From a virus, in the IMG/VR virus record IMGVR_UViG_3300006923_000037, positions 1-47,918 of that record: a DNA stretch of 47,918 nucleotides; one strand, written 5' to 3'. The notes under the pieces were generated by a model. It saw only the letters and a program-made list of their open reading frames with translations, searched no databases and was not told the origin of the DNA. A program made the position numbers and the translations under genes. Shown in pieces: positions 3,087 to 14,724 of this stretch; position 1 is the stretch's first letter, and every line of letters begins with the position of its first letter.

Positions 3087-3628
3087 TGGTTGTTTAATCT
3101 TTTCATTAACTTATTATATATTTCTTCATCTCTTTCTTTTTGATGAGATTCATGAAGGCGAGGTTGTGATGTGTTTTTCTTGGATTCTTCTTGCGCGCCC
3201 TGGTCCGATGCCTCTACTTCCTCTGTATCGTCGTCCTCGGGGGATTCCTCTGTCGGCTCCTGATCTTCTGAATTTTCCCCTGTTAATAGATCTCTTAATA
3301 AGGTTACTCCAGTTTCCAAAGCTTTTCGCGTGTCGCCGGGTGTTGCTTTTACCTTTTTTGCAACCACTCGAATCTTATCTGAAACTTCAAGTCCTTCCAC
3401 TTGTTTCTTTGCTTCTTCTGATGATGCACCATTTTCCTCAAAATGTTTTTTTGCATGCATCTCTAAAAAAGCTTCTATGGGGTCTTTTTTTGATGATGTT
3501 AATCCTTTCACTCTTTTAAAAGCAGGAGATATTTTATTAAAGAAATCTTTAATTCTTCCCTCTTCAAGTTCGTCTGTTCTTGCTTCTATGCTTTCTCTGA
3601 GAAGTTTTTTAAAATCTTGGTTATTCAT
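3083..3628 (-). CDS. Acidic hypothetical protein with conserved-looking terminal helices
   Basis: The 181-aa product starts MNNQDFKKLLRESIEARTDELEEG, an amphipathic helix of a type seen at the N-termini of several phage virion proteins. It has a helical middle (about 25-115) and then a very acidic, probably disordered linker (about 116-150, rich in Glu, Asp, Ser). It ends with RDEEIYNKLMKRLNNQ (166-181), similar to the tail of the downstream peptidase. The gene overlaps both neighbours by ATGA junctions. The architecture, two terminal recognition helices around an acidic linker, suits a scaffold or adaptor, but no family is recognised. Confidence 0.75.
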   Translation of the reverse strand: MNNQDFKKLLRESIEARTDELEEGRIKDFFNKISPAFKRVKGLTSSKKDPIEAFLEMHAKKHFEENGASSEEAKKQVEGLEVSDKIRVVAKKVKATPGDTRKALETGVTLLRDLLTGENSEDQEPTEESPEDDDTEEVEASDQGAQEESKKNTSQPRLHESHQKERDEEIYNKLMKRLNNQ

Positions 3629-3849
3629 GCTTCTTGTTCCTTAATACGCAGTACCTCTAATAAATAGTCTCTAGTAACTTTATCTTCGAATAGATAGATC
3701 GTTGCTGCTGGTAATAATTTGTTAGCCATTTTAGCATCGTATATTTTTAGAATAACTCCTGCTCCAAACTTATCCTTTATAAGAGGTTTTGTATATACTA
3801 TATCTCCCACTTTAAACTTTTCTTTTAATTCTTCTCCGATTAATTTCAT
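3625..3849 (-). CDS. Small SH3/KOW-like hypothetical protein
   Basis: The 74-aa product has the pattern KVGDIVYTKP...GAGVILKIYD...IYLFEDKVTRDYLLEVLRI, typical of a small SH3-like or KOW-like beta barrel. Such barrels bind proteins or nucleic acid; nothing more specific can be said. It overlaps the YkuK-like gene upstream and the acidic protein gene downstream by ATGA junctions, so all three are probably translationally coupled. Confidence 0.7.
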   Translation of the reverse strand: MKLIGEELKEKFKVGDIVYTKPLIKDKFGAGVILKIYDAKMANKLLPAATIYLFEDKVTRDYLLEVLRIKEQEA

Positions 3850-4307
3850 TTGGAGTGTTTATCCGCAACTGAAGAAGACGCCCAAGATTCGGGTTTGAGT
3901 TTATATTTAAATCCAGAGCCTCTGGTATACCCAACTAGCATATTAACAAACTTGTTGGTATATGCACCTTCTTTTGGGTTAATATCCAGATGTAACTCAA
4001 TGTTAATGTCTGGTATTTCTTCTGTAAGCAAATTTCCAAGTTCTATTGTCATTTCTACTTCGTGAAGAACACGAAGCATTATAGTTGGAAATTTATCTGC
4101 AAGTTTACTGTTTCGTTTGTAAAAGTAAATGCCGCCCGCTTGTTCTCTTGCTCCGTGTAAACAGATGCTGCTAGCAAACACACAGTCTGTCCTGCTTTTT
4201 TGGCTATCACACCCAATATATACATTAGCACCCTTTTTAGAATATTCTTTAGTGATACTAACAACTTCTTCAAATGATATCTTTTTCCCATTTCCAGTTA
4301 ACCACAT
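3846..4307 (-). CDS. YkuK/DUF458-family RNase H-like protein
   Basis: The 153-aa product fits the predicted RNase H-like family typified by Bacillus YkuK (DUF458). It has an N-terminal strand with an invariant-type aspartate (VYIGCDSQKS, about residues 29-38), a central LHLDINP strand with a second acidic residue (about 108-114), and a C-terminal signature, KPESWASSSVADKHSK (about 138-153), almost the same as the family's KPxSxAxSSVADKHT ending. The length also fits. By family, the fold suggests a metal-dependent nuclease, though the biological role of YkuK proteins is not established. Here it sits in a coupled operon, 2 nt after the upstream stop. Assignment to the family is confident; activity is not. 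Confidence 0.85.
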   Translation of the reverse strand: MWLTGNGKKISFEEVVSITKEYSKKGANVYIGCDSQKSRTDCVFASSICLHGAREQAGGIYFYKRNSKLADKFPTIMLRVLHEVEMTIELGNLLTEEIPDINIELHLDINPKEGAYTNKFVNMLVGYTRGSGFKYKLKPESWASSSVADKHSK

Positions 4308-4309
4308 CT

Positions 4310-4657
4310 TTATTCTTCATAAGGATTAAAATCCCGAGAATCTACATGCTTTACGCCTTGGGTTTTCATTGCATCTAACATTTGGTGAGTATATTGTACT
4401 TGCTGTGAAATGTTTGGCAGCACAGTAGTCATTATATATTCTAGTTGAATTTCTGAAACATTTCCTGCTTGGTAATCAGCTACAATATCTCTTTGTAGTT
4501 GCTGAAGAAGTTGGTATGTTTGGCTGCTATATTTATCAAACTTAGTTATGTCTTGTTTTATTTCGGCTGCCTGGGCATCACCGTATTGAGGATATCTTTC
4601 AGATAAGAGTTCCTGGTTTGCCTCAATAACTAATTCTTTAATTTGTTTTTTGTTCAT
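4310..4657 (-). CDS. Small helical hypothetical protein
   Basis: The 115-aa product starts MNKKQIKELVIEANQELL. The ATG at 4657 is preceded by a perfect GGAGG site with 5 nt spacing, so it is preferred over a TTG five codons upstream. The protein is almost entirely helical and Gln-rich (TYQLLQQLQRDIVADYQAG, then LPNISQQVQYTHQMLDAM) and is probably a coiled coil. The N-terminal helix resembles those of other virion-associated proteins in this operon. The gene ends 2 nt before the YkuK-like gene. No family is recognised. Confidence 0.75.
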   Translation of the reverse strand: MNKKQIKELVIEANQELLSERYPQYGDAQAAEIKQDITKFDKYSSQTYQLLQQLQRDIVADYQAGNVSEIQLEYIMTTVLPNISQQVQYTHQMLDAMKTQGVKHVDSRDFNPYEE

Positions 4658-4685
4658 TTGGGCCTCCAACAATAACTAGTCTTGT

Positions 4686-5009
4686 TTAGTTATAACCTAT
4701 CTGTTTAATATATTTTAAAGGAATCTCTGCATAGCCTCGTGGTATATTATCTGAAACTATTTTAACATATCCTTCTTCATCTGGAGCATCTGTTATTAAT
4801 ACCTCCATTCCTGTATAAATTCTTATCATTTTCTTGGTTGTATTATCCATAATCCATATTTCTTTTAAATCATCTGGTAAAATAATAATTTGATATGGAA
4901 TCGGAGGATCCGTCCCATCATTCATTGTTAAAACGTCTTTATAGAGTATTTCAACGTATTGTAATATAAAGTTCTGAATTTCTGGCTTTATTTTTGTACT
5001 CAAAATCAA
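4686..5009 (-). CDS. Hypothetical protein with a UUG start
   Basis: The 107-aa product has a helical N-terminus (EIQNFILQYVEILYKDVL) followed by a beta-rich C-terminal part (KKMIRIYTGMEVLITDAPDEEGYVKIVSDNIPRGYAEIP) that resembles a small SH3-like barrel. The start is TTG: AGGAGG lies 4 nt before the TTG at 5009 and 10 nt before another TTG at 5003, so either may be used. The region just upstream encodes a 20-codon frame that overlaps this start as TTGA. A -1 shift at its end would join the two into one longer protein. Confidence 0.65.
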   Translation of the reverse strand: MILSTKIKPEIQNFILQYVEILYKDVLTMNDGTDPPIPYQIIILPDDLKEIWIMDNTTKKMIRIYTGMEVLITDAPDEEGYVKIVSDNIPRGYAEIPLKYIKQIGYN

Positions 5010-5068
5010 GGCGCCTCCTCGACAAAGTAAGTAGGAGAAGGTGCATCGAATAGAGTTATTTTATCCAT
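5006..5068 (-). CDS. 20-codon coupled mini-gene or frameshifted N-terminus of the next gene
   Basis: An ATG at 5068-5066 overlaps the stop of the upstream gene as TAATG and opens a 20-residue frame starting MDKITLFDAPSPTYF. It ends with a TGA (5008-5006) that overlaps the next gene's TTG start as TTGA. The two overlaps make it look translated. Its last codons contain the AGGAGG site of the next gene. It may be a true mini-protein, a coupling leader, or the displaced N-terminus of the next protein after a -1 shift (programmed or an assembly error). Confidence 0.45.
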   Translation of the reverse strand: MDKITLFDAPSPTYFVEEAP

Positions 5069-5286
5069 TAAATGATTTCTGCTCTTCTTGTCGCCTCGTC
5101 TAGAGCCTCAATATGAGTCTCATAATACTCTGAAATTTCTTTATTACGATATTTCTTGTAATACCACTTTCCCTTATTAGGGCCTATCTTAACTTTTTTA
5201 ACAACCAATTTTGGTTCTAAGTTAAGACTTTCAAAGTGATTTGCGTTTTTGTATTTCCAGCTAGGGTATGTATCTTTTTCTTCCAT
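5068..5286 (-). CDS. Small basic hypothetical protein (possibly leaderless)
   Basis: The 72-aa product starts MEEKDTYPSWKYKNANHF and contains KIGPNKGKWYYKKYRNKEISEYYETHIEALDEATRRAE, a Tyr/Lys-rich beta-hairpin-plus-helix layout that suggests a small nucleic-acid-binding protein, without a known family. An earlier in-frame ATG at 5304 lies between the -35 and -10 boxes of a strong sigma70 promoter, so it cannot be used from that promoter. The ATG at 5286 coincides with the expected transcription start. No Shine-Dalgarno site precedes it, so the mRNA may be leaderless. Its stop overlaps the 20-codon frame downstream. Confidence 0.65.
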   Translation of the reverse strand: MEEKDTYPSWKYKNANHFESLNLEPKLVVKKVKIGPNKGKWYYKKYRNKEISEYYETHIEALDEATRRAEII

Positions 5287-5292
5287 GTATAT

Positions 5293-5321
5293 AATATAAC
5301 ACATATATTGTAAAAAGTCAA
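5293..5321 (-). promoter_or_regulatory. Sigma70-type promoter
   Basis: TTGACT (5321-5316) and TATATT (5298-5293) are separated by 17 nt on the minus strand, each one mismatch from consensus. Transcription would start at about 5286, on or beside the ATG of the small basic protein. This is one of three near-consensus host-type promoters in the window. Confidence 0.75.
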
Positions 5322-5346
5322 GAAAATAAACATATTTTCAATAAAA

Positions 5347-5642
5347 TGGTGGAGGTGACAGGACTCGAACCTGCAATCTTCTGCATGCCTACTAACTATA
5401 AATTTCTTTACCAACATTGTTGTTTGTAGTCTGGACTTTCTCTCAACCATATCATAATGACTTAGGCTATTCCCGTCAAGTCTCTACACCTGCCTTATAT
5501 AAGGATTGGCTCGGGATTGCCATCAGCTTCATCTGTTAAGGTTTCCCCGAATTTGAGAATATATGCAACATAACATTTCTATTATGAGGCTCGCATTTTA
5601 GTTGGTTTAAGGCAGATGCTTCCCCGATTAAGCTACACCCCC
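5347..5642 (-). tRNA. tRNA-Ala(UGC), split by a group I intron
   Basis: The 5' exon is 5642-5609 and the 3' exon 5388-5347. Joined, they give a 76-nt tRNA with encoded CCA. The acceptor GGGGGUG pairs with CACCUCC and includes the G3-U70 wobble recognised by alanyl-tRNA synthetase, and the discriminator is A73. The D stem is GCUU/AAGC. The anticodon stem UCUGC/GCAGA encloses loop CUUGCAU, giving anticodon UGC. The variable loop is AGAUU, and the T stem GCAGG/CCUGU encloses UUCGAGU. The intron lies between U34 and G35 of the anticodon. Without the intron the gene is intact and should be functional; it would read GCA and related alanine codons. A late-promoter-like element (5662-5671) lies 19 nt upstream. 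Confidence 0.95.
5389..5608 (-). other. Group I intron (IC3-like), 220 nt, in the tRNA-Ala anticodon loop
   Basis: The 5' exon ends in U and the intron ends in G, as group I splicing needs. The internal guide AUGCGAG (5596-5590) pairs GAG with the exon's CUU (P1, with the U-G wobble at the splice site) and AUGC with the 3' exon's GCAU (P10), which fixes both splice sites. P3 is AUUCUC (5560-5555)/GGGAAU (5474-5469). P4 is UCGGG (5550-5546)/CCCGA (5515-5511). P7 is GACU (5482-5479)/AGUC (5437-5434). Hairpins CAUAA/UUAUG (P2), CCUUA/UAAGG (5504-5493) and CAAC/GUUG (P9) are also present. Core strings such as GUGUAGAGACU..GACGGG and GGCAAUCCCGAGCC resemble bacterial tRNA introns (Anabaena tRNA-Leu, Azoarcus tRNA-Ile) as I recall them. 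It encodes no protein. Confidence 0.93.
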
Positions 5643-5650
5643 TTTAAGTG

Positions 5651-6193
5651 TCAAGCTTGTTTATAAATAGTGTTAATAAAACCAGAAACATATAAATTAA
5701 TTTTTTCTTCTATTAGCATTTTATAACGACTATGAATATATCCATGGTGAGTTGGACATAGTGGTACCAAATTGCTTGGTATATTATTGTGATGGTTTAA
5801 ATCATAATGATGTACCGCTACAATTAAATTTTCTTTACATATTATACATTCTTTTTTATGATATTTGAAACATATAGCTCTATAGTGTTTTGTTGTATCA
5901 TAATGAAAAGGTTGTATTTCTTTAATGCCTCCTATTTTTTGTGATATATCCTTACACTTTCTTTCACAAAAGAAAAGGCCACTTTTTGACGCTCTTTTTT
6001 TAGATTCAGACTTGTAAAATAATTTATCACAGTTTGCGCATTTAACATTTGGTTCTTTTAATTTTTTGTTTTTACTTCTCCATTCTCCAAAACATTTTCT
6101 TCCACAATATTTTCCATAACCTCTCCTCGCTTCTTTTAATAATACTTCAAATTCTTTTTCACAATTTTGGCATTTTTTAATCATTGTTAGCAT
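5651..6193 (-). CDS. HNH homing-type endonuclease
   Basis: The 180-aa product has two N-terminal Cys-pair modules (CQNCEKEF...YCGRKC and CANCDKLF...FCERKC, about residues 8-80), likely zinc-binding DNA-recognition units. The C-terminal HNH nuclease contains CIICKEN, VHHYDLNHHNNIPSNLVPLC and THHGYIHS (about 115-155): the first His pair, central Asn and final His match the beta-beta-alpha-metal active site. The architecture is that of free-standing phage homing endonucleases. The gene ends 8 nt before the intron-containing tRNA on the same strand. It may therefore cut intronless tRNA-Ala genes and drive spread of the intron and itself. A second in-frame ATG at 6184 is an alternative start; neither has a strong ribosome site. 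ACTATTTATA lies 26 nt upstream. Confidence 0.85.
   Translation of the reverse strand: MLTMIKKCQNCEKEFEVLLKEARRGYGKYCGRKCFGEWRSKNKKLKEPNVKCANCDKLFYKSESKKRASKSGLFFCERKCKDISQKIGGIKEIQPFHYDTTKHYRAICFKYHKKECIICKENLIVAVHHYDLNHHNNIPSNLVPLCPTHHGYIHSRYKMLIEEKINLYVSGFINTIYKQA
5662..5671 (-). promoter_or_regulatory. Candidate late promoter element for the tRNA-Ala/intron
   Basis: ACTATTTATA on the minus strand lies inside the last codons of the HNH gene and ends 19 nt before the first base of the tRNA. It has the orientation and spacing of the other seven elements, so the tRNA may have its own late start. Confidence 0.5.
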
Positions 6194-6219
6194 TTAAAAT
6201 TAATCCTATATTCTAATAT

Positions 6220-6229
6220 TATAAATAGT
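6220..6229 (-). promoter_or_regulatory. Candidate late promoter element for the HNH gene
   Basis: ACTATTTATA on the minus strand ends 26 nt before the HNH gene's first ATG, in the 150-nt divergent gap between the minus-strand operon and the PIN-PhoH gene. The rest of this gap (6194-6343) holds the PhoH ribosome site and no further gene I can support. Confidence 0.55.
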
Positions 6230-6343
6230 TCAGTGGAACATATTTTCCTTGCGCAAAATAATAATATTTCCTTAATATTAAACAGTAACTCGTAAAGCAG
6301 ACAACTACTTACATCGAAACATTAAACCTCGGAGGTACCAAAC

Positions 6344-7651
6344 TTGAAAAAAACTTACATACTTGATACTAGTGTTTATTTAACAGATGCAGAATCCATT
6401 TTCCAGTTCGAAGATAATAATATTGTTATACCCATAAAGGTTTTAGAAGAACTGGATAAACATAAAAATAGACAAGATGGAGTCGGCCTCCAAGCAAGAA
6501 AACTAATTCGAACTCTGGATGATCTAAGAAATGTAGGATCGCTTAGAGAGGGTGTTGTTTTGAATGAATATCAAGGAATTGTAAAAGTTATGGCTCACAG
6601 TCCTGAATTATTACCAAAGGATTTAGATCTTAAGCATGCTGATCATCTTATAATGTCGACGGCGCTAGCGGCGCAGAAAGAAACAAGTGAAGAAGTTGTA
6701 GTTGTGACTTGCGATATTAATATGAGAGTTATCAGCGATAGTTTGGGACTTAAAGTCGAAGAATACACTGCTAACAGAGTAATAGATAAAAGAGATAACC
6801 TCTATAGTGGATATTCTGAGATTATTGTCGATGCAGATATCATCGATGGTTTTTATGCTGGAGAAGAAGTCTTTTTAGATCTCGAAGATTGTAAACCAAA
6901 TGAGTTCTTAATTTTAGTATGTTCTTCGGATGAAAAGAAAAGTGCATTAGCAAGATATACTAACCCACACACTCCTTTAAGAAGGCTTCCAACGGACCTT
7001 AAAAAAGGAATATGGGGAGTATGTCCGAGAAACAAAGAACAGATGTTTGCTATGGATTTATTATTGGATCCAAATATTAAAGTTGTATCACTGGTAGGTG
7101 CACCAGGAGCAGGCAAAACTCTTATTGCTTCCGCCGCTGGATTAGAACAAACTCTAACGCTTGGTACGGGATCTTATAAGAAAATACTTATTTCTCGACC
7201 TGTTCAGCCCGTAGGAAAAGATATTGGTTTTCTTCCTGGTACATTAGAAGAAAAAATGCTTCCCTGGCTTAAACCAATTCAAGATAATCTTCAATATTTA
7301 CTTGGTTCTGATGAAGCAACCCTAGAGATGTATATGGATAAGAAAACAATTGAGATTGAGGCAATCAGCTTCATTCGCGGACGAAGTATTCCAGATTCTT
7401 TTATTATTATTGATGAGTGTCAAAACATTACTCCTCATGAAGTAAAAACTATTTTAACAAGAGTTGGAGAGAACTCAAAAATAGTATTAACTGGAGATAT
7501 TGAGCAGATTGATAATATTTATATTAATGAACTTACAAATGGATTAACTCATGCTGTTGAGCAGTTCAAGGAATACGGAATTGCTGGACACGTCACTCTC
7601 AAAAAGGGAGAAAGATCAGAAGTTGCAACCCTTGCAGCGAAGATCTTGTAA
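6344..7651 (+). CDS. PIN domain-PhoH ATPase
   Basis: The 435-aa product has an N-terminal PIN nuclease domain (about residues 1-150; ILDTSVY with Asp8, VLEELDKH with Glu35/36, ADHLIMSTAL and TCDINMR) and a C-terminal PhoH-type P-loop ATPase. Walker A is GAPGAGKT (252-259) and Walker B FIIIDECQN with Asp357/Glu358; TRVGENSKIVLTGDIEQID is the sensor region. This is the full PhoH2/YlaK-type architecture, proposed by family to couple RNA unwinding with RNase activity. The start is TTG at 6344, with a GGAGG site 8 nt upstream, and matches the usual N-terminus of the family. It is the first rightward gene. PhoH proteins are frequent in marine phages, but their role in infection is unsettled. Confidence 0.93.
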   Translation: MKKTYILDTSVYLTDAESIFQFEDNNIVIPIKVLEELDKHKNRQDGVGLQARKLIRTLDDLRNVGSLREGVVLNEYQGIVKVMAHSPELLPKDLDLKHADHLIMSTALAAQKETSEEVVVVTCDINMRVISDSLGLKVEEYTANRVIDKRDNLYSGYSEIIVDADIIDGFYAGEEVFLDLEDCKPNEFLILVCSSDEKKSALARYTNPHTPLRRLPTDLKKGIWGVCPRNKEQMFAMDLLLDPNIKVVSLVGAPGAGKTLIASAAGLEQTLTLGTGSYKKILISRPVQPVGKDIGFLPGTLEEKMLPWLKPIQDNLQYLLGSDEATLEMYMDKKTIEIEAISFIRGRSIPDSFIIIDECQNITPHEVKTILTRVGENSKIVLTGDIEQIDNIYINELTNGLTHAVEQFKEYGIAGHVTLKKGERSEVATLAAKIL

Positions 7652-7654
7652 AAT

Positions 7655-7676
7655 GTTGTCAAAAGAATTTGACAAC
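7655..7676. promoter_or_regulatory. Perfect 9-bp dyad overlapping the -35 box
   Basis: GTTGTCAAA (7655-7663) and TTTGACAAC (7668-7676) form a perfect inverted repeat with a 4-nt AGAA loop. The right arm contains the TTGACA -35 box of the next promoter. It could be an operator, or the stem of a weak terminator for the PhoH gene; no T-run follows it. Confidence 0.6.
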
Positions 7677-7697
7677 GGGCAAAAAGGATGCTATACT
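7669..7697 (+). promoter_or_regulatory. Sigma70-type promoter for the metallopeptidase gene
   Basis: A consensus -35 TTGACA (7669-7674), a 17-nt spacer and TATACT (7692-7697) predict transcription from about 7704. An ATG follows at 7705, and a better ribosome site (GGAG, 7769-7772) precedes an ATG at 7780. Confidence 0.8.
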
Positions 7698-7779
7698 ATA
7701 TAAGATGTTTAATAAGAAGATTAAGATAGATGGTAATGTTTATCATTTAGAATACTTAAAATACTCTTGGAGAAATAAT

Positions 7780-8427
7780 ATGACAGAGAATAAAGAATAT
7801 AAGTTAAATAATATTAATATTTATATAAAAGATAATTTTAAAAATAAGATTGATCTTAATAATGTAATTGATCAGTTGAAAACAACTTTACCAGACAGTA
7901 TGTTTGAAGAAATAGATTCAATGTATATTGGAGAGTTTGAGATGTTAATCAATCATGATTTGAATGCTCTTTATAAAGATGGAGCAATATATATCAGTAA
8001 TGTTCAAGATAATGAATCAGATTTATTAGATGATATCATTCATGAAACTGCTCATTCTTTAGAAACAAAGTATTCTTTTCTAATTTATGGAGATAGCAAG
8101 ATAGAAGATGAATTCATAAGAAAAAGAGTTAAGTTAATGAAGATTTTAGAAGAAATGGGTTTTAAAACAAATCAAGCTTTATTCATTGATTCAGAATACT
8201 CAAAGGAATTAGATGAATTTCTTTATAAAGATATCGGTTATGAATTATTGAATGTAATTTTCTCACAACAAGGTATTTTTACTTCTCCTTATGCAGCAAC
8301 CTCTATAAGAGAATATTTTGCTACTGGATTTGAATATTACTTCTTAGATGAAAGAAAATACCTCAAACAAATTAGTCCAGCCCTATTTACTAAAATAGGG
8401 GAAATTCATAAAGAATGTACAATATAA
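7780..8427 (+). CDS. HExxH metallopeptidase, lethal-factor-like (ATLF-type) active site
   Basis: The 215-aa product has the zinc motif HETAH (residues 88-92) followed about 85 residues later by SIREYFATGFEYYFL, where Glu178 or Glu185 would be the third ligand. This spacing and the E(Y/F)FA...YY pattern recall the anthrax-lethal-factor-like (ATLF) peptidase fold; that family call is tentative. The ATG at 7780 is chosen because a GGAG site lies 7 nt upstream. A frame-matched ATG at 7705, directly at the predicted transcription start, would add 25 residues (starting MFNKKIKIDGNVYHLEY) by leaderless translation. The strong promoter suggests early or middle expression, so host proteins are plausible targets. 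The next gene starts inside its last codons. Confidence 0.75.
   Translation: MTENKEYKLNNINIYIKDNFKNKIDLNNVIDQLKTTLPDSMFEEIDSMYIGEFEMLINHDLNALYKDGAIYISNVQDNESDLLDDIIHETAHSLETKYSFLIYGDSKIEDEFIRKRVKLMKILEEMGFKTNQALFIDSEYSKELDEFLYKDIGYELLNVIFSQQGIFTSPYAATSIREYFATGFEYYFLDERKYLKQISPALFTKIGEIHKECTI
8381..8400 (+). promoter_or_regulatory. 8-bp hairpin next to a gene start
   Basis: CCCTATTT (8381-8388) and AAATAGGG (8393-8400) pair perfectly around a 4-nt loop near the end of the metallopeptidase gene, 14 nt before the next ATG. The right arm holds the only G-rich sequence (AGGGG) before that ATG. Folding could hide the ribosome site unless ribosomes translate the upstream gene. Confidence 0.4.
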
Positions 8428-8849
8428 TAATTAAAGAATCTTATAAGAGAATAAGTTCTGAAACAGTAAATGAAACAGTTCTAGTAACAGTTGAAATGGC
8501 ACCATACGAAAAAAACTATCAACCAGTCAGGATGTCATGTACAAAGAGTGAAGTCTCTCAATGGTTAAGAGATAATAATATTGAAGTTGGTAAAATGACT
8601 TATGGGCACAACTTAAATAATGTTAATAAAGGCTTGTGTGCTGGAAGATTTGAATTTAATTTACCAGAAAAAGAAATAATTATTGAAAAACCACTTGACA
8701 AACCAGCAAAAGATGTTATATTATATAATGAACAAGAACAAGTAGAGATCACAATTGACAACAACAAAAAGTCAAAACGTAAATCAAAAAAATCTTCAAA
8801 GTCAAAAAAGAAAGCACATAAGCTTCTCAGAAATGAGAATTTGGTCTGA
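8415..8849 (+). CDS. Hypothetical protein with a Lys/Ser-rich tail
   Basis: The 144-aa product has a folded-looking N-terminal part (about residues 1-90; ETVLVTVEMAPYEKNYQPVRMSC, then EVSQWLRDNNIEVGKM) and a short linker. The tail (about 115-136) consists mostly of Lys and Ser and is very basic. No family is recognised; a basic tail of this sort may bind nucleic acid. Its start overlaps the metallopeptidase gene by 13 nt, and its 3' end overlaps the nuclease gene by 95 nt in the +1 frame. The long overlap is unusual here. It may reflect coupled expression, or a split of one longer protein. Confidence 0.65.
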   Translation: MYNIIIKESYKRISSETVNETVLVTVEMAPYEKNYQPVRMSCTKSEVSQWLRDNNIEVGKMTYGHNLNNVNKGLCAGRFEFNLPEKEIIIEKPLDKPAKDVILYNEQEQVEITIDNNKKSKRKSKKSSKSKKKAHKLLRNENLV

Positions 8850-9576
8850 ATGTGCTTATAAACATAAACTTATATATCTAGATAAAATTAAAGAATTTAA
8901 GGGTAATGAATTCACAGCCTTTGGTACTGCGGTTCATACTGTTTGTGAAAGTCTTCTATTAACAGAAGATATTAATACAGAAGTTCTGTTTGAAAAAGAA
9001 TTTGAAAGAGAGTTAATTTCTTTACCCTCTGATCTTGAATTAAGAGAAGATTTAATTCGTCAAATGGAAACACAGGGAAGAGACATCCTACCAGAAGTAC
9101 TCCCAGCAGTTAAAGAGTACTTTGGAGAATACGAAGTAGTTAATACAGAAGAAGAACTCTATGAACTCATCGAAGCCTTCGGAGACGATAACAACTTCAA
9201 AGGCTTTATTGATTTAGTAGTTAAAACCGCAGATGGCAAATACCACATTATTGATTGGAAAACATGTAGCTGGGGTTGGAATCTTCAAAAACGAACTGAT
9301 AAACTTATCACTTATCAGTTGACGCTTTACAAGCATTTCTTTGCTAAAAAGCACAACATTGATACAAAATTAATAGAAACTCATTTTGCACTTCTTAAGA
9401 GAACCTCTAAAAAAGAAAGAGTAGAAATTTTCAGAGTAACCAGTGGTGAAAAGAAAACTGATAATGCTATGGCTCTCTTAGAAAAAGCAGTTAATAATAT
9501 TCAGAGAAACAGACATATTAAAAACCGCTTATCATGTGCAAAATGTGAGTTTCATAAAACTAAACATTGCCCATAG
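8755..9576 (+). CDS. Cas4/RecB-like PD-(D/E)XK nuclease with an Fe-S cluster motif
   Basis: The 273-aa product has the RecB/Cas4 nuclease order: an N-terminal ISFSEMRIWSECAYKHKL segment with Cys33, the motif AVHTVCE with His61, Asp153 in GFIDLVV, and Asp167-x-Lys169 in IIDWKT. It ends with three cysteines (261, 264, 272). One N-terminal and three C-terminal cysteines are the signature of the 4Fe-4S cluster of Cas4/AddB-type nucleases. By family it would cut or resect DNA. No CRISPR array or other cas gene is present, so a phage recombination or DNA-processing role is more likely than adaptation. The only plausible start is TTG at 8755, because the first ATG (8833) would remove conserved residues; the ribosome site is weak. 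A GT gene follows after 12 nt. Confidence 0.85.
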   Translation: MTTTKSQNVNQKNLQSQKRKHISFSEMRIWSECAYKHKLIYLDKIKEFKGNEFTAFGTAVHTVCESLLLTEDINTEVLFEKEFERELISLPSDLELREDLIRQMETQGRDILPEVLPAVKEYFGEYEVVNTEEELYELIEAFGDDNNFKGFIDLVVKTADGKYHIIDWKTCSWGWNLQKRTDKLITYQLTLYKHFFAKKHNIDTKLIETHFALLKRTSKKERVEIFRVTSGEKKTDNAMALLEKAVNNIQRNRHIKNRLSCAKCEFHKTKHCP

Positions 9577-9588
9577 GATAAACAATAA

Positions 9589-10860
9589 ATGTCAGAGAAT
9601 AAGAAAATAAAAATACTAATGTTAGGAGATTCTCCTTTCGCACCTTCTGGAGTTGGAACACAATTAAAATATATTTGTGAAGCCCTCCTTAAAACAGGTA
9701 AGTTTTCAATCATTAACCTCGGAGGAGCACTTAAGCACGCTAGTTATAAGCCTCAGAGAACAGAAGAATACGGAGAAGACTGGACAGTCATTCCAGTAGA
9801 CGGATACGGAACACAAGAAATGATTCGTTCTGCTATTTGGACAGAGAAACCAGATCTATTATTCTTTATGACCGACCCAAGATACTGGGCTTGGTTATGG
9901 GAAATTGAAAACGAGGTCCGACCCCACATTCCGATGGTTTATTATCACGTTTGGGATAACTATCCATATCCACATTATAATAATAAATTTTATCAGTCTA
10001 CAGATGTTGTGTTTAACATCTCGAAAGTAACTCACGATATTGTTACAACGGTATCTCCAAACGTAGAAGCACATTATTTACCACACGCGGTTAACTCAGA
10101 AGTCTTCCAAGCTTTCCCAGAAGAAACAGTACAGGAACTTAAAGAACAACACTTTGAAGATGATCAGAGATTTACATTCTTTTGGAATAACAGAAATGCA
10201 CGACGCAAGATGAGTGGAAGTCTTGTTCATTGGTTTAACGAATTCGCAGAACAAGTTGGACCAGAGAACGTAAGACTCATTATGCATACTGATCCAAAAG
10301 ATAAGCATGGCCAAGACTTAGCTCACATTATTAATCATCTTGAAGCAGATGATGGCAGAATCATGTTATCAACTAAAAAGATTCCACCCGAGGCCCTAGC
10401 TGTAATGTATAATATTTCAGATTGTACAATCAATATTTCAGATGCAGAAGGGTTTGGTTTGGCGACACTGGAGTCTTTGTCCTGTGGTACTCCAATCATT
10501 GTGAGTATGACTGGTGGACTTCAAGAACAGGTTACAGATGGCAAGAAGTGGTTTGGGATTGGTATTGAACCAGCATCAAAAGCAATTATCGGATCACAGT
10601 CCGTTCCATACATTTATGAAGATCGTGTTTCGAAAGAAGATTTTATTAATGCTTTAAGAGAAATGTATAAGATGTCCAAAACAAAAAGAAAGAAAATGAT
10701 TTCTCAAGGAAGAAAACACGTTGCTAAAAACTATAATTTTGAAGACTTCACTAAACGATGGGTTGATGAAATCACATCTATCCACGAACGTCACGGCTCT
10801 TGGGAAACAAGAGAAGGCTATGAAGCTTGGGAAATTAAGGAGGTAGGAAATGTCAATTAA
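9589..10860 (+). CDS. GT4-family glycosyltransferase
   Basis: The 423-aa product has the GT-B fold layout. The N-terminal Rossmann domain begins with a strand and Gly-rich turn (ILMLGDSPFAPSGVGTQL). The C-terminal nucleotide-sugar-binding domain carries DAEGFGLATLESLSCGTPII (Asp285, Glu287), the E-x7-E type motif of retaining GT4 enzymes. It would transfer a sugar from an NDP-sugar to an unknown acceptor in the host cytoplasm. The gene is the first of the glycosylation island, starts 12 nt after the nuclease gene, and overlaps the next GT gene by 11 nt. Acceptor and sugar cannot be read from the sequence. Confidence 0.88.
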   Translation: MSENKKIKILMLGDSPFAPSGVGTQLKYICEALLKTGKFSIINLGGALKHASYKPQRTEEYGEDWTVIPVDGYGTQEMIRSAIWTEKPDLLFFMTDPRYWAWLWEIENEVRPHIPMVYYHVWDNYPYPHYNNKFYQSTDVVFNISKVTHDIVTTVSPNVEAHYLPHAVNSEVFQAFPEETVQELKEQHFEDDQRFTFFWNNRNARRKMSGSLVHWFNEFAEQVGPENVRLIMHTDPKDKHGQDLAHIINHLEADDGRIMLSTKKIPPEALAVMYNISDCTINISDAEGFGLATLESLSCGTPIIVSMTGGLQEQVTDGKKWFGIGIEPASKAIIGSQSVPYIYEDRVSKEDFINALREMYKMSKTKRKKMISQGRKHVAKNYNFEDFTKRWVDEITSIHERHGSWETREGYEAWEIKEVGNVN

Positions 10861-12106
10861 GAGAATTTTAATCAGAGGTCCAATTTTAACATCTTCGGGA
10901 TATGGAGTACACGCTAGAACAGTATATCGTTCACTGGCCAAACGTCCAGACTTATTCAAATTGTATGTGGTACCAGTTAACTGGGGTCAAACTGGCTGGA
11001 TTTCAGAAGACACACAAGAGCGCAAAGATCTAGATAAGATTATTGCGGAGACTCAAATAGCCATCAATAATAAAGAACACTTTGATATTTCACTACAAGT
11101 CACAATCCCAAATGAATGGGAAAGGCTAGCTCCAGTTAATATTGGTATTACAGCGGGAATTGAAACAACAAAGGTTGCACCAGAGTGGCTACAAAAAGCA
11201 AATGAGATGGATAAAGTGATCACCATCTCAGAACACTCAAAGAATGTATTCGAGGATACAGTTTATACAGGTCAACATCCAGAAACTGGTGAAACTGTAA
11301 CTCTAAGCTTAAATACCCCCATCGAGGTAGTAGGATATCCAGTAAAAGAACATGAAGTAATTGATCTTGGATTCAAACTAGACTATGATTTCAATTATCT
11401 AACAGTTTGTCAGATGGGCCCTCGAAAGAATCTTGGTACACTTATCCAATGGTTCTGCGAGGAGAACTTCGATCAAGAGGTTGGACTAGTTGTTAAAACC
11501 TCGATTAAGAAGAATAATAGAATCGATAGAGAACATACAGAAGAAATGTTGGAGGTTGTATTAAATAACTTCCCAAATAGAAAGTGTAAGGTATATCTCT
11601 TACACGGAAATATGAATGAACAAGAAATGAATTCTCTATATAATCACCCTCAGATTAAATGCTATACAAGCACAAGCCATGGAGAAGGCTTCGGGCTTCC
11701 TATCTTTGAAGCAGTATACAATGCAATGCCTGTAATCGTTCCAGGATGGTCGGGACAATGTGACTTTCTTTATGTTCCAGATCCAAAGAATAAGAAGAGA
11801 AATAAACCCATGTTCGCAAGCGTAGAATACGATTTACAGCCTATTCAAAAGGAAGCTGTTTGGGATGGTGTTCTAGTGGCCGATTCTATGTGGTCTTTCG
11901 CCCGAGAAGGGTCCTTTAAGCGACGTTTACGAGAAGTCCGCACTGGGTATGGGAATTGGAAGAAGAAGGCTCAGAAACTACAAAAATGGGTAAAGAAAGA
12001 ATTCAGTGAAGAAGTGATTGATGAGAAATATATGAGTGGGGTTTATAATCCAGATCCGGATGTTGAGGAGTTGTTTAAAAGTATATCAGAGATGGAAGGA
12101 CTATAA
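10850..12106 (+). CDS. GT4-family glycosyltransferase
   Basis: The 418-aa product is a second GT-B glycosyltransferase. It has an N-terminal ILIRGPILTSSGYGVHARTV turn, the CQMGPRKNLGTLIQWF segment that starts the C-terminal domain, and SHGEGFGLPIFEA (Glu279 to Glu287 region) followed by MPVIVPGWSG. It resembles its upstream neighbour in layout, so the two may have arisen by duplication or act one after the other on the same glycan. The ATG has a good AAGGAGG site about 7 nt upstream inside the previous gene, and the genes overlap by 11 nt. Confidence 0.87.
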   Translation: MSIKRILIRGPILTSSGYGVHARTVYRSLAKRPDLFKLYVVPVNWGQTGWISEDTQERKDLDKIIAETQIAINNKEHFDISLQVTIPNEWERLAPVNIGITAGIETTKVAPEWLQKANEMDKVITISEHSKNVFEDTVYTGQHPETGETVTLSLNTPIEVVGYPVKEHEVIDLGFKLDYDFNYLTVCQMGPRKNLGTLIQWFCEENFDQEVGLVVKTSIKKNNRIDREHTEEMLEVVLNNFPNRKCKVYLLHGNMNEQEMNSLYNHPQIKCYTSTSHGEGFGLPIFEAVYNAMPVIVPGWSGQCDFLYVPDPKNKKRNKPMFASVEYDLQPIQKEAVWDGVLVADSMWSFAREGSFKRRLREVRTGYGNWKKKAQKLQKWVKKEFSEEVIDEKYMSGVYNPDPDVEELFKSISEMEGL

Positions 12107-12113
12107 GTTTATA

Positions 12114-13748
12114 ATGAAAAGTATTATTTTTGTATCTGATCTTTTCAAGGAAGATTATCCGGGTGGCGCCGAATTAACAACTGAAGCTATTATGGAAGGG
12201 TGTTTCTTTCCTTTAGTTAAAATAAAATCACAACAAGTAACACCGACTTTATTACAAAAATTTAAAAATAATTTTTGGATATTTGGGAATATAGCAGACT
12301 TATCAGATGAAACTCTTTTATATATTTCTCAAAATTTAAATTATTCTGTGGTGGAATATGATTACAAATTTTGTTCCTTCAGATCTCCAGAAAAACACGA
12401 GCAAGCTCAAAAGTCTTGCAATTGTCAACACACCCGCCACGGAAAAATAGTTTCTATCTTTTTTGCTCAGGCCACTAATCTTTGGTTTATGTCGGAGAGA
12501 CAAAGAGATTTTTATTATGAATTATATCCTTTTTTGAAGAAAAAGAGCACGATTGTTTTGAGTTCTGTCTTCAGTAAATCAACTTTAGATTATATTGAAA
12601 ATTTAAATACTAAAGAAAAAAATGATATTTGGTTAATCCAAAAATCCTCCTCTTGGATAAAGGGAACTGAAAATTCAATTTCATTTGCTAAAGATTCTAA
12701 TATGAAATATGAAATTTTCCATGATCTTTCTTATTATGATATATTACATAAATTTGCACAATCTAAAGGATTTATCACTCTTCCGAGAGGTAAAGATACC
12801 TGTCCCAGAACAACAATTGAGGCCAAATTATTAGGCTGCGAAATTGAATCTAACGAGAATGTTCAACATAAATATGAAGATTGGTTTAGTGGATCCACTC
12901 AGAAAGCTTTGAAATATTTAAGGTCTCGGGCCGAATATTTTTGGAAAATAACACTCCCGCAAACAAATATAGAAGTCCCGACCTACACTGGGAAAAGCGA
13001 GAATAACATTCATTTTAAGGTTATTATACCTGTTTATAATTCAGAATTGTGGATAAAGAAATCTATTCAAAGTGTGTTAGAACAAAAATATGATAATTAT
13101 GAATGTATTATTTGTGATGATATGTCTACCGACGAAACTTATAGTATTTGTAAATCTCTTATATTAAATGAATCTAAATTTCGACTTATTAAAAATACAG
13201 AAAAGAAATTTGCTTTGAAAAATATTTATGATTCCATTCAAATTTCCGATGCCAAAGAGGAAGATGTGATCGTAATTTTGGATGGAGATGATTGGTTATC
13301 TACTCGCTATGTATTATCTCATTTAAATAAATTTTATGAAAAAGAGAATTGTTTATTAACTTTTGGTAGTTTTATTGAGTCTCCCACAGGCCACCTCGGA
13401 GCAGAATCTAGTAACTACCCTTCAGAAATTGTAAAAAATAACTTATTCCGAGAAGATTCCTGGAGAGCTTCTCATTTGAAAACGTTTAAGGCTTTATTAT
13501 GGAATAATATAAAGATTGGTGATTTTTTGGACGAAGACGGGAAATTTTATGAAATGACTTACGATCAGGCTATAATGCTTCCGATGTTGGAAATGAGCGG
13601 CGAAAGAGCTAAATATATTCCGCAAATTAATTATGTTTATAATATCTCCAACCCCGCCGCAGTTAATAAAACAAAAGCCCGTAAACAACATGAGTTGATG
13701 TTAAAAATAAGGGAAAAACCTAAATATAGGAGGCTAGAGAATGCATAA
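12114..13748 (+). CDS. Two-domain glycosyltransferase (GT-B-like plus GT2)
   Basis: The 544-aa product joins two glycosyltransferase-like halves. The N-terminal part (about residues 1-300) starts MKSIIFVSDLFKEDYPGGAE, like a GT-B enzyme, and contains the GT4-like stretch FITLPRGKDTCPRTTIEAKLLGCEI. The C-terminal part (about 310-520) is a GT2-type GT-A domain: FKVIIPVYNSELWIKKSIQS, ICDDMSTDET, and the metal-binding DGDDW. The N-terminal half lacks an obvious EGFG motif and may be non-catalytic. The ATG at 12114 is preferred because upstream codons in this frame overlap the previous gene. Base use is strongly AT-rich compared with the two GT genes before it. The next gene overlaps its 3' end by 8 nt. 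Confidence 0.82.
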   Translation: MKSIIFVSDLFKEDYPGGAELTTEAIMEGCFFPLVKIKSQQVTPTLLQKFKNNFWIFGNIADLSDETLLYISQNLNYSVVEYDYKFCSFRSPEKHEQAQKSCNCQHTRHGKIVSIFFAQATNLWFMSERQRDFYYELYPFLKKKSTIVLSSVFSKSTLDYIENLNTKEKNDIWLIQKSSSWIKGTENSISFAKDSNMKYEIFHDLSYYDILHKFAQSKGFITLPRGKDTCPRTTIEAKLLGCEIESNENVQHKYEDWFSGSTQKALKYLRSRAEYFWKITLPQTNIEVPTYTGKSENNIHFKVIIPVYNSELWIKKSIQSVLEQKYDNYECIICDDMSTDETYSICKSLILNESKFRLIKNTEKKFALKNIYDSIQISDAKEEDVIVILDGDDWLSTRYVLSHLNKFYEKENCLLTFGSFIESPTGHLGAESSNYPSEIVKNNLFREDSWRASHLKTFKALLWNNIKIGDFLDEDGKFYEMTYDQAIMLPMLEMSGERAKYIPQINYVYNISNPAAVNKTKARKQHELMLKIREKPKYRRLENA

Positions 13749-14724
13749 AAGCTTAAAAAACTTGGAAAAATTAATTCAAATTTACAATCTTGATCCAGCT
13801 GGAATTTCCGATTCTACTTCGACTCATCTTATTAATGGAGATACAAAATTAAATCAATCAGAAATTGTTTTATACATGTTATTGAATTATATGAACAATA
13901 TTAACGATATTGATTCTATTAATTTGGATCCTAAAATATTTGATTCTACTATTATTAAAGATTTTCATATAACCAAAGAGCAACTGAATTCAGCGTGGAA
14001 AAAAATTGATATTAAGTCCTCTCCGAGTAGAAAAATGGGAGATATTTTTTGGTCTACGCTACCTTATGAAGAATTTGGTGAAATTAATATATTGGATATC
14101 GGTTGCGGAAAGGGAGATTATTCTAAAAAATTATGGGAGTGGTCGAATAAACGAATGGTTTCATATACTGGATTGGATATCTTTCCTACCTCTTGCTGGC
14201 AAACCAATGAAGAGTGGGGAAAATCCAACAATGTAAAAATTAATTTTAGAAAAATTAATATAGATGAAGATAATTTTCAACAAATTATTCCCCCAAATAC
14301 AAATTTTTTCATATCTCAATCTTCATTGGAACATATAAAATATGATTTAAAATATTTTAAAAATGTTAAAAAATATACTGATACCGCTGATTTTCCAGTA
14401 TATCAAGTACATTTATTCCCAGCTCCAGCTTCATTGAGACTTTTTTTGTTACATGGATATAGACAGTATGGATTAAATTCAATATCCAAAATTGTAGATA
14501 TTTTTCAAGATAGTTCAATTGAATTAATTAAATTGTGTGGAGATGAATGTAACAAAGTTCATTACGAGTATATAACAGCGCCTATTTATATGTCTGGTGT
14601 GGGGGATTTGAGAGAAACAAAAACTGAACAATATGACGCAGATTTATATAAAGCAGCTCTAAAAGATATGGAAAATTCTATATCAAATCCTGGTTTCTGG
14701 GCTTTGGTAATAAAGACGGACTAA
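13741..14724 (+). CDS. Class I SAM-dependent methyltransferase
   Basis: The 327-aa product has a helical N-terminal extension (about residues 1-105) and then a class I methyltransferase core: NILDIGCGKGDYSKKL (motif I, about 116-131), YTGLDIFP (acidic motif II) and FFISQSSLEHIKYD (motif IV, about 194-207). SAM binding is clear; the substrate is not. Between glycosyltransferases, O-methylation of a glycan or a chain-terminating methyl cap is plausible. The start overlaps the fused GT gene by 8 nt, with AGGAGG-like sequence (AGGAGGCTAGAGA) before the ATG. The gene is very AT-rich. Confidence 0.8.
   Translation: MHKSLKNLEKLIQIYNLDPAGISDSTSTHLINGDTKLNQSEIVLYMLLNYMNNINDIDSINLDPKIFDSTIIKDFHITKEQLNSAWKKIDIKSSPSRKMGDIFWSTLPYEEFGEINILDIGCGKGDYSKKLWEWSNKRMVSYTGLDIFPTSCWQTNEEWGKSNNVKINFRKINIDEDNFQQIIPPNTNFFISQSSLEHIKYDLKYFKNVKKYTDTADFPVYQVHLFPAPASLRLFLLHGYRQYGLNSISKIVDIFQDSSIELIKLCGDECNKVHYEYITAPIYMSGVGDLRETKTEQYDADLYKAALKDMENSISNPGFWALVIKTD

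Follow-up and report, generated by a model that had tools for sequence, protein, structure and literature searches.

A phage tRNA-Ala(UGC) gene split after U34 by an IC3-like group I intron, one member of a class of intron-split phage tRNA genes

Can the anticodon of a phage tRNA gene be split by a group I intron and, if so, how might the intron have come to be there? The question is raised by a viral record of IMG/VR (IMGVR_UViG_3300006923_000037; 47,918 nt, the whole of which is called the window here) in which ARAGORN with default settings found no tRNA anywhere along the 48 kb. When introns of 10-3000 nt were allowed, the program returned exactly one tRNA for the window, a tRNA-Ala(UGC) with an insertion between positions 34 and 35 (Table 1). 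On the minus strand, the 5' exon (5642-5609) reads GGGGGTGTAGCTTAATCGGGGAAGCATCTGCCTT and the 3' exon (5388-5347) reads GCATGCAGAAGATTGCAGGTTCGAGTCCTGTCACCTCCACCA; joined (34+42) and submitted again to ARAGORN, they give a 76-nt tRNA-Ala(UGC) with a complete cloverleaf, the UGC anticodon, the G3-U70 pair and an encoded CCA end. A preliminary description made from the sequence alone had proposed these same exons and this same spliced product, with its G3-U70 pair and CCA, and had warned that the gene might escape a standard tRNA search, and ARAGORN bears it out on both counts. Its interpretation of the locus, a tRNA-Ala(UGC) host gene interrupted by an intron of the group I class, is also supported by ARAGORN, by covariance models and by helix covariation, and the split gene at 5347-5642 on the minus strand is confirmed as real. 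The tRNA has a G at position 21, which in tRNAs is usually A, and its T stem opens with a G49-U65 wobble. Judging from G3-U70 and from codon use, the spliced tRNA would probably accept alanine and serve in translation: GCA accounts for 360 of the 754 alanine codons in the window and is the commonest alanine codon of the phage.

Table 1. Coordinates of the split tRNA-Ala(UGC) gene, its intron and the adjacent nuclease gene in the window.
Feature	Position	Strand	Basis
Tract differing as a unit from L397: 5' part of 3' exon, intron, 5' exon, HNH gene, spacer	5375..6297	-	blastn
HNH endonuclease gene (180 aa), on the strand of the tRNA and 8 nt upstream of it	5651..6193	-	phrog_1271, E=4.9e-15
5' exon of tRNA-Ala(UGC), nt 1-34, 3' end C32 U33 U34	5609..5642	-	ARAGORN with introns; colinear with intronless allele of L397
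Group I (IC3-like) intron, 220 nt, terminal G	5389..5608	-	RF00028; leave-window-out covariance model; covariation; missing from L397
Internal guide AUGCGAG: GAG with exon CUU as P1 (U34-G wobble), AUGC with exon GCAU as P10	5590..5596	-	
P3, 5' strand	5555..5560	-	partner 5469-5474; 5/6 pairs covary
P4, 5' strand, UUCGGG	5546..5551	-	covariation alignment
P4, 3' strand, CCCGAG	5510..5515	-	covariation alignment
P6 hairpin	5493..5504	-	covariation alignment
P7, 5' strand, GACUU, guanosine-site helix	5478..5482	-	pair swaps across 50 introns
P3, 3' strand	5469..5474	-	covariation alignment
P8 hairpin	5445..5468	-	covariation alignment
P7, 3' strand, AAGUC	5434..5438	-	covariation alignment
3' exon of tRNA-Ala(UGC), nt 35-76 including encoded CCA	5347..5388	-	ARAGORN with introns; L397 blastn match begins at 5388

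The class of the intron was approached with covariance models. At the Rfam gathering cut-off nothing in the window matched, and RF00028, aligned over its full length, scored the intron at 43.7 bits (E=4.3e-10), below its threshold of 50. The preliminary description had suggested this very search and would have taken the lack of any group I model hit as a refutation; there is such a hit, but it lies under the curated cut-off, and a default Rfam run would therefore have been read as the refutation. That cut-off is a screening threshold and no defining property of group I introns, and known cyanobacterial tRNA introns likewise score 46-49 bits with RF00028. When a covariance model was built from 30 other phage introns, with the window left out, the intron scored 162 bits (E=2e-45), and this phage-trained model also matched the cyanobacterial introns in tRNA-Leu (L280, E=9e-37), tRNA-Arg (L299, 3e-19) and tRNA-Met (L306, 3e-42). 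We regard the window intron as an IC3-like tRNA intron, homologous to the bacterial IC3 introns, with the subgroup set by resemblance and not by a subgroup model.

The intron has a group I core of P3, P4, P6, P7 and P8 with the P3/P7 pseudoknot, and its ends have the expected form, with the last U of the 5' exon paired to a guide G, a terminal intron G and a P10 with the 3' exon. In an alignment of 50 phage tRNA introns with the window as its first sequence, RNAalifold found 44 pairs, 35 of them compensatory; when P1 and P7 were added, 97.1% of cells were paired as against 75.8% in shuffles, a value reached by none of 500 shuffles. Both sides change in 39 of the 52 core pairs and all core helices covary, including P3, P4 and P7, which the preliminary description had seen only as pairable; shifting the partner by a single base as a control brings pairing in the same alignment down to ~40%. 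Across the 50 introns P7 occurs as GACUA/UAGUC, GACUU/AAGUC and GGCCA/UGGUC, and P1 as CUU/GAG, which accounts for 46, UGU/GCA and UCU/GGA.

The guide that had been proposed, AUGCGAG pairing with CUU and GCAU, is indeed found with both its helices, P1 (CUU/GAG) and P10 (GCAU/AUGC). The bases 5' of its GAG follow the host tRNA: AUGC faces GCAU in Ala, a U-rich stretch faces AAAA in Leu, UAG faces CUA in Arg, UAC faces GUA in Thr, and UUG faces CAA. In 82 distinct phage introns inserted after U34, these guide bases pair with host tRNA bases 35-37 in 198 of 246 cases, which was equalled in 0 of 10,000 permutations and again in 0 of 10,000 without the Leu class. The guide thus tracks the anticodon, and therefore the splice sites are fixed, both for the class and for the window. 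In the route that we envisage, the precursor tRNA would fold so that the guide pairs with CUU in P1 and GCAU in P10, the intron would excise itself with guanosine as cofactor, and a mature tRNA-Ala that reads GCA would be released; guanosine-initiated self-splicing in two steps is predicted for the intron.

An allele of the same locus that lacks the intron was found through a search with the neighbouring PhoH protein. This record (IMGVR_UViG_3300031861_000003, here L397) is 97.8% identical to the window over 6298-12077 and 95.9% over 3558-5388, and at the same place it has an uninterrupted 76-nt tRNA-Ala(UGC) that is colinear with the spliced exons of the window (34+42) without any indel. Removal of exactly these 220 nt from the window thus gives the empty allele seen in L397, whose 76-nt tRNA-Ala has no intron, and we consider this the decisive evidence for the intron. 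It also sets the boundaries independently of the guide, in agreement with the earlier placement of the splice sites at U34/G35: blastn homology between the two records stops at 5388, which is the predicted 3' splice site, and resumes at 6298. No HNH endonuclease gene is present at the tRNA-Ala locus of L397, whereas in the window one lies directly beside the tRNA.

The exons themselves also differ between the alleles, at ten places (tRNA positions 13, 15, 16, 17, 21, 22, 32, 38, 46 and 48), and from tRNA position 49 to the end and into the downstream flank the two records are nearly identical. The 13-22-46 and 15-48 contacts are established interactions of tRNA structure, and both are kept: C13-G22-G46 becomes U13-A22-A46 and U15-A48 becomes A15-U48. 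Bases that flank the intron on its two sides thus change together, as expected if they are joined in one tRNA. The distribution of the differences looks like an exon co-conversion tract, a mark of homing that has been described for phage introns (PMC2988022). The event would be a gain in the window or a loss in L397, its direction not being polarised by an outgroup. If the locus were instead a dead remnant, an unspliced intron in a tRNA pseudogene, G21 and the Rfam score under the cut-off would find a ready account; the core helices, however, are all intact with compensatory changes, the guide exactly matches its own exons, the exon substitutions preserve the pairs and triples of the tRNA, and the acceptor stem and CCA are undamaged, and we consider a remnant very improbable.

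How the intron reached the tRNA gene is a matter on which the adjacent gene may bear. The encoded protein has Cys pairs at its N-terminus and an H-N-H motif at its C-terminus (HHYDLN...NLVPLCPTHH). In unrelated phages (L392-L394), an intronless tRNA-Ala(UGC) has a homologue with 56% identity immediately upstream, and relatives of the HNH protein occur inside the tRNA arrays of the jumbo phages XbC2 (Xanthomonas), BF (Serratia) and pEa_SNUABM_12 (Erwinia). The phage Leu intron nearest to that of the window (L113) has a different HNH ORF 8 nt from its tRNA. Of the 72 ORFs that lie no more than 150 nt from an intron-split phage tRNA, 20 match phrog_1271, as compared with 2 of 72 or fewer for every HNH family among ORFs 2-4 kb away (Fisher ~2e-5 on these counts), a control that is unmatched for tRNA adjacency; an independent BLAST cluster yields 12/72 vs 5/246. 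Phage tRNA clusters in general often contain HNH genes. Since the control is unmatched and homing nucleases such as SegB are drawn to tRNA regions (PMC13096335), the enrichment supports collaborative homing and does not prove it. A conserved 156-aa HNH_2-type ORF was also seen 48-50 nt from a split tRNA-Arg(UCU) in five viral contigs (L039, L043, L094, L114 and L198) and in 0 control stretches; the L094 contig elsewhere resembles Synechococcus cyanophages.

Position and co-occurrence thus support a link between the nuclease and the intron, which could form a two-part mobile element. The HNH protein would cut the intronless tRNA-Ala in or near the anticodon arm, repair would copy intron and nuclease together, and the intron would protect the donor. 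The adjacent endonuclease, the joint absence of intron and nuclease from the empty allele and the co-conversion pattern are features of collaborative homing, seen here in one allele pair of unpolarised direction; the homologues beside intronless tRNA-Ala genes and in jumbo-phage arrays, the different HNH ORF at the L113 Leu intron and the phrog_1271 enrichment point the same way. On the other hand, the HNH genes at intron tRNAs belong to several unrelated subfamilies, and the pairing of intron and HNH is therefore no fixed unit; the enrichment controls have the weakness given above, and cleavage by the HNH protein is putative. Taken together, we see this account as evenly poised. Spread at the level of RNA, by reverse splicing into the anticodon-loop CUU followed by recombination and with the HNH gene as a passenger of tRNA-rich regions, would fit a P1 that requires only CUU, common to many U34 tRNAs (CUU/GAG in 46/50), the presence of one intron lineage at one position in four kinds of tRNA (see below), and the majority of intron tRNAs, which have no HNH gene within 150 nt. 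It leaves the exon co-conversion and the joint absence of intron and HNH gene from L397 unexplained, and appears to us unlikely.

The interrupted gene of the window does not stand alone: split tRNA genes form a class that is widespread in phages, and it belongs to that class. Two pattern scans of IMG/VR viral contigs, whose counts are lower bounds for the matches listed, recovered at least 129 intron-split tRNA genes, as compared with 0/243 in shuffled windows and 0/243 on antisense strands; as a positive control, cyanobacterial introns already known from Leu(UAA), Arg(CCU) and CAU tRNAs were found by the same route. Among the matches listed, after boundary refinement, there are about 92 Leu(UAA), including those called 'Tyr' by ARAGORN, 14 Arg(UCU), 5 Asn(GUU), 4 CAU, 3 Thr(UGU), 2 Lys(UUU), and single cases of Lys(CUU), Ala(UGC), UCA and a Glu-like UUC. 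ARAGORN also assigned introns to 'Tyr(AUA)', 'Phe' and 'Ser' tRNAs; most of these are Leu(UAA) introns whose boundary had slipped, and the three kinds were rejected. In other phages with intronless homologues of the Arg and Thr exons, the blastn match starts at or within one base of the predicted 3' exon. Several intron-core blastn matches were rejected since they fall between pieces of protein genes and not in tRNAs: those in HTVC120P (Pelagibacter), KM23-C739 (uncultured phage), Koomba-kaat_1 (Staphylococcus), BSTP8 (Bacillus), pYD6-A (Pseudoalteromonas) and crAss cr116_1 and cr111_1.

Three cultured phages carry an unannotated split tRNA. Agrobacterium phage Atu_ph07 (L311, NC_042013.1) has at 752-1113 a tRNA-Leu(UAA) with a 278-nt group I intron, the 3' part of which is annotated as a hypothetical protein; its genome paper gives 33 tRNAs by tRNAscan-SE and does not list the intron. 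Gordonia phage Daredevil (L310, NC_048021.1) has at 840-1151 a tRNA-Lys(UUU) with a 238-nt group I intron and an HNH gene ~450 nt away. In Klebsiella phage Muenster (L124, MT708547.1), a group I intron whose boundaries were placed by eye interrupts a CAU tRNA after U36 (~1400-1770); this tRNA lies in a gap that the annotation leaves in the tRNA array, and an HNH gene lies downstream. Apart from these, the model of phage tRNA introns matches twice in tandem, at 404-606 and 913-1114, in a 595-kb phage with no tRNA called (L314, LR756511.1), possibly as two introns in one gene, and the viral contig L054 has at 12900-13900 two split tRNAs, Arg(UCU) and Leu(UAA), ~600 nt apart, with introns from different branches.

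In a FastTree phylogeny of 107 introns, a short alignment in which the deeper branches are weak, the window intron groups with those of L219 (Arg), L113 (Leu), L183 (UCA), L254 (Leu) and L054 (Arg) with support of 0.99, and this clade contains no cellular intron. The UCA-anticodon tRNA of the clade (L183:14212-14526, plus strand), UGA-reading and suppressor- or SeC-like, contains a 226-nt group I intron. A clade that mixes Arg(UCU), Leu(UAA), UCA and Ala hosts argues that one intron lineage occupies four kinds of tRNA at the same position. Two Ala-directed patterns found no second Ala intron in viral contigs, a search from which records very near the window were possibly left out, and a pattern search of 84,980 species genomes found no tRNA-Ala intron in bacteria; its 43 matches were all intronless, and ARAGORN calls nearly all of them tRNA-Ala(GGC). 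These results bear on whether the contig could be cellular or plastid DNA misfiled as viral, in which case its intron would be of the usual bacterial tRNA kind. Bacterial tRNA genes are well known to contain IC3 introns (PMC3984707), but the window, an IMG/VR record, has genes for baseplate wedge subunits, a tail terminator, a tape-measure-like protein, a late sigma factor homologue, PhoH and glycosyltransferases, a content that fits a myovirus, its intron clusters with phage introns, and the pattern used found no tRNA-Ala intron in the species genomes; a non-phage source is almost certainly wrong.

We conclude, with a probability of roughly 0.9, that the tRNA-Ala(UGC) gene is interrupted after U34 by a mobile IC3-type group I intron that was acquired with the HNH gene. 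The intron lineage would have moved among phage Arg, Leu, UCA and Ala tRNA genes at the same U34 site, the guide being re-tuned to each new anticodon, and in the window the intron and the adjacent HNH gene would have arrived within a single recombination tract, with co-conversion of exon sequence; we read it as a mobile IC3 intron that passed from one phage tRNA species to another, possibly spread by the HNH nuclease next to it. More tentatively, and with rather more doubt than belief, we propose that phages carry a large and largely unannotated class of split tRNAs, in which IC3 introns hop between tRNA species, re-tune their guides and spread with tRNA-targeting free-standing HNH nucleases. 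It is pure speculation that a split between positions 34 and 35 of the anticodon might shield the precursor from tRNA-cutting defences.

Inferences on host range, codon adaptation and counter-defence draw on phage tRNA counts, and the tools behind these counts can miss split genes, as ARAGORN with default settings did in the window. The pair formed by the window and the empty site of L397, together with Atu_ph07, Daredevil and Muenster, makes splicing and homing of phage tRNA introns directly testable, and split phage tRNAs suggest where IC3 introns can still move between tRNA genes. The literature searched, which took in few subscription journals, nowhere describes a phage tRNA gene that contains a group I intron.

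Group I introns in the anticodon loops of bacterial tRNAs are textbook knowledge (PMC3984707). According to the same review, of 2014, every phage intron known at that time lay in a protein-coding gene, although phages have many tRNA genes (PMC3984707); the split tRNA genes of phage contigs and isolates described here provide a counterexample at scale. With the bacterial IC3 introns of cyanobacterial tRNA-Leu(UAA), Azoarcus tRNA-Ile, Agrobacterium tRNA-Arg(CCU) and Synechocystis tRNA-fMet, the window intron shares insertion in the anticodon loop, a length of ~200-300 nt and the helices, and with those of Leu(UAA) also the U34 site. It differs from them in its host, a phage tRNA-Ala(UGC), in its clade of phage introns, and in having an HNH gene outside the intron and beside the tRNA. 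The T4 td, nrdB and nrdD, Twort and SPO1 introns are also phage group I introns, with homing and exon co-conversion (PMC2988022), but are found in protein genes rather than in a tRNA gene. An ORF-less intron paired with a free-standing endonuclease that lies at or close to the insertion site has its closest parallels in F-CphI with the cyanophage psbA intron and T4 mobE with the nrdB intron (PMC2988022, PMC6083498); in contrast to the collaborative or trans homing of F-CphI and mobE, the target in the window would be a tRNA gene, and its cleavage is putative. Finally, SegB of T4 and T6 is, like the window HNH protein, a free-standing nuclease of phage tRNA clusters (PMC2988022, PMC13096335), but it is a GIY-YIG enzyme that acts without the involvement of an intron, whereas the nuclease gene of the window is of the HNH type.
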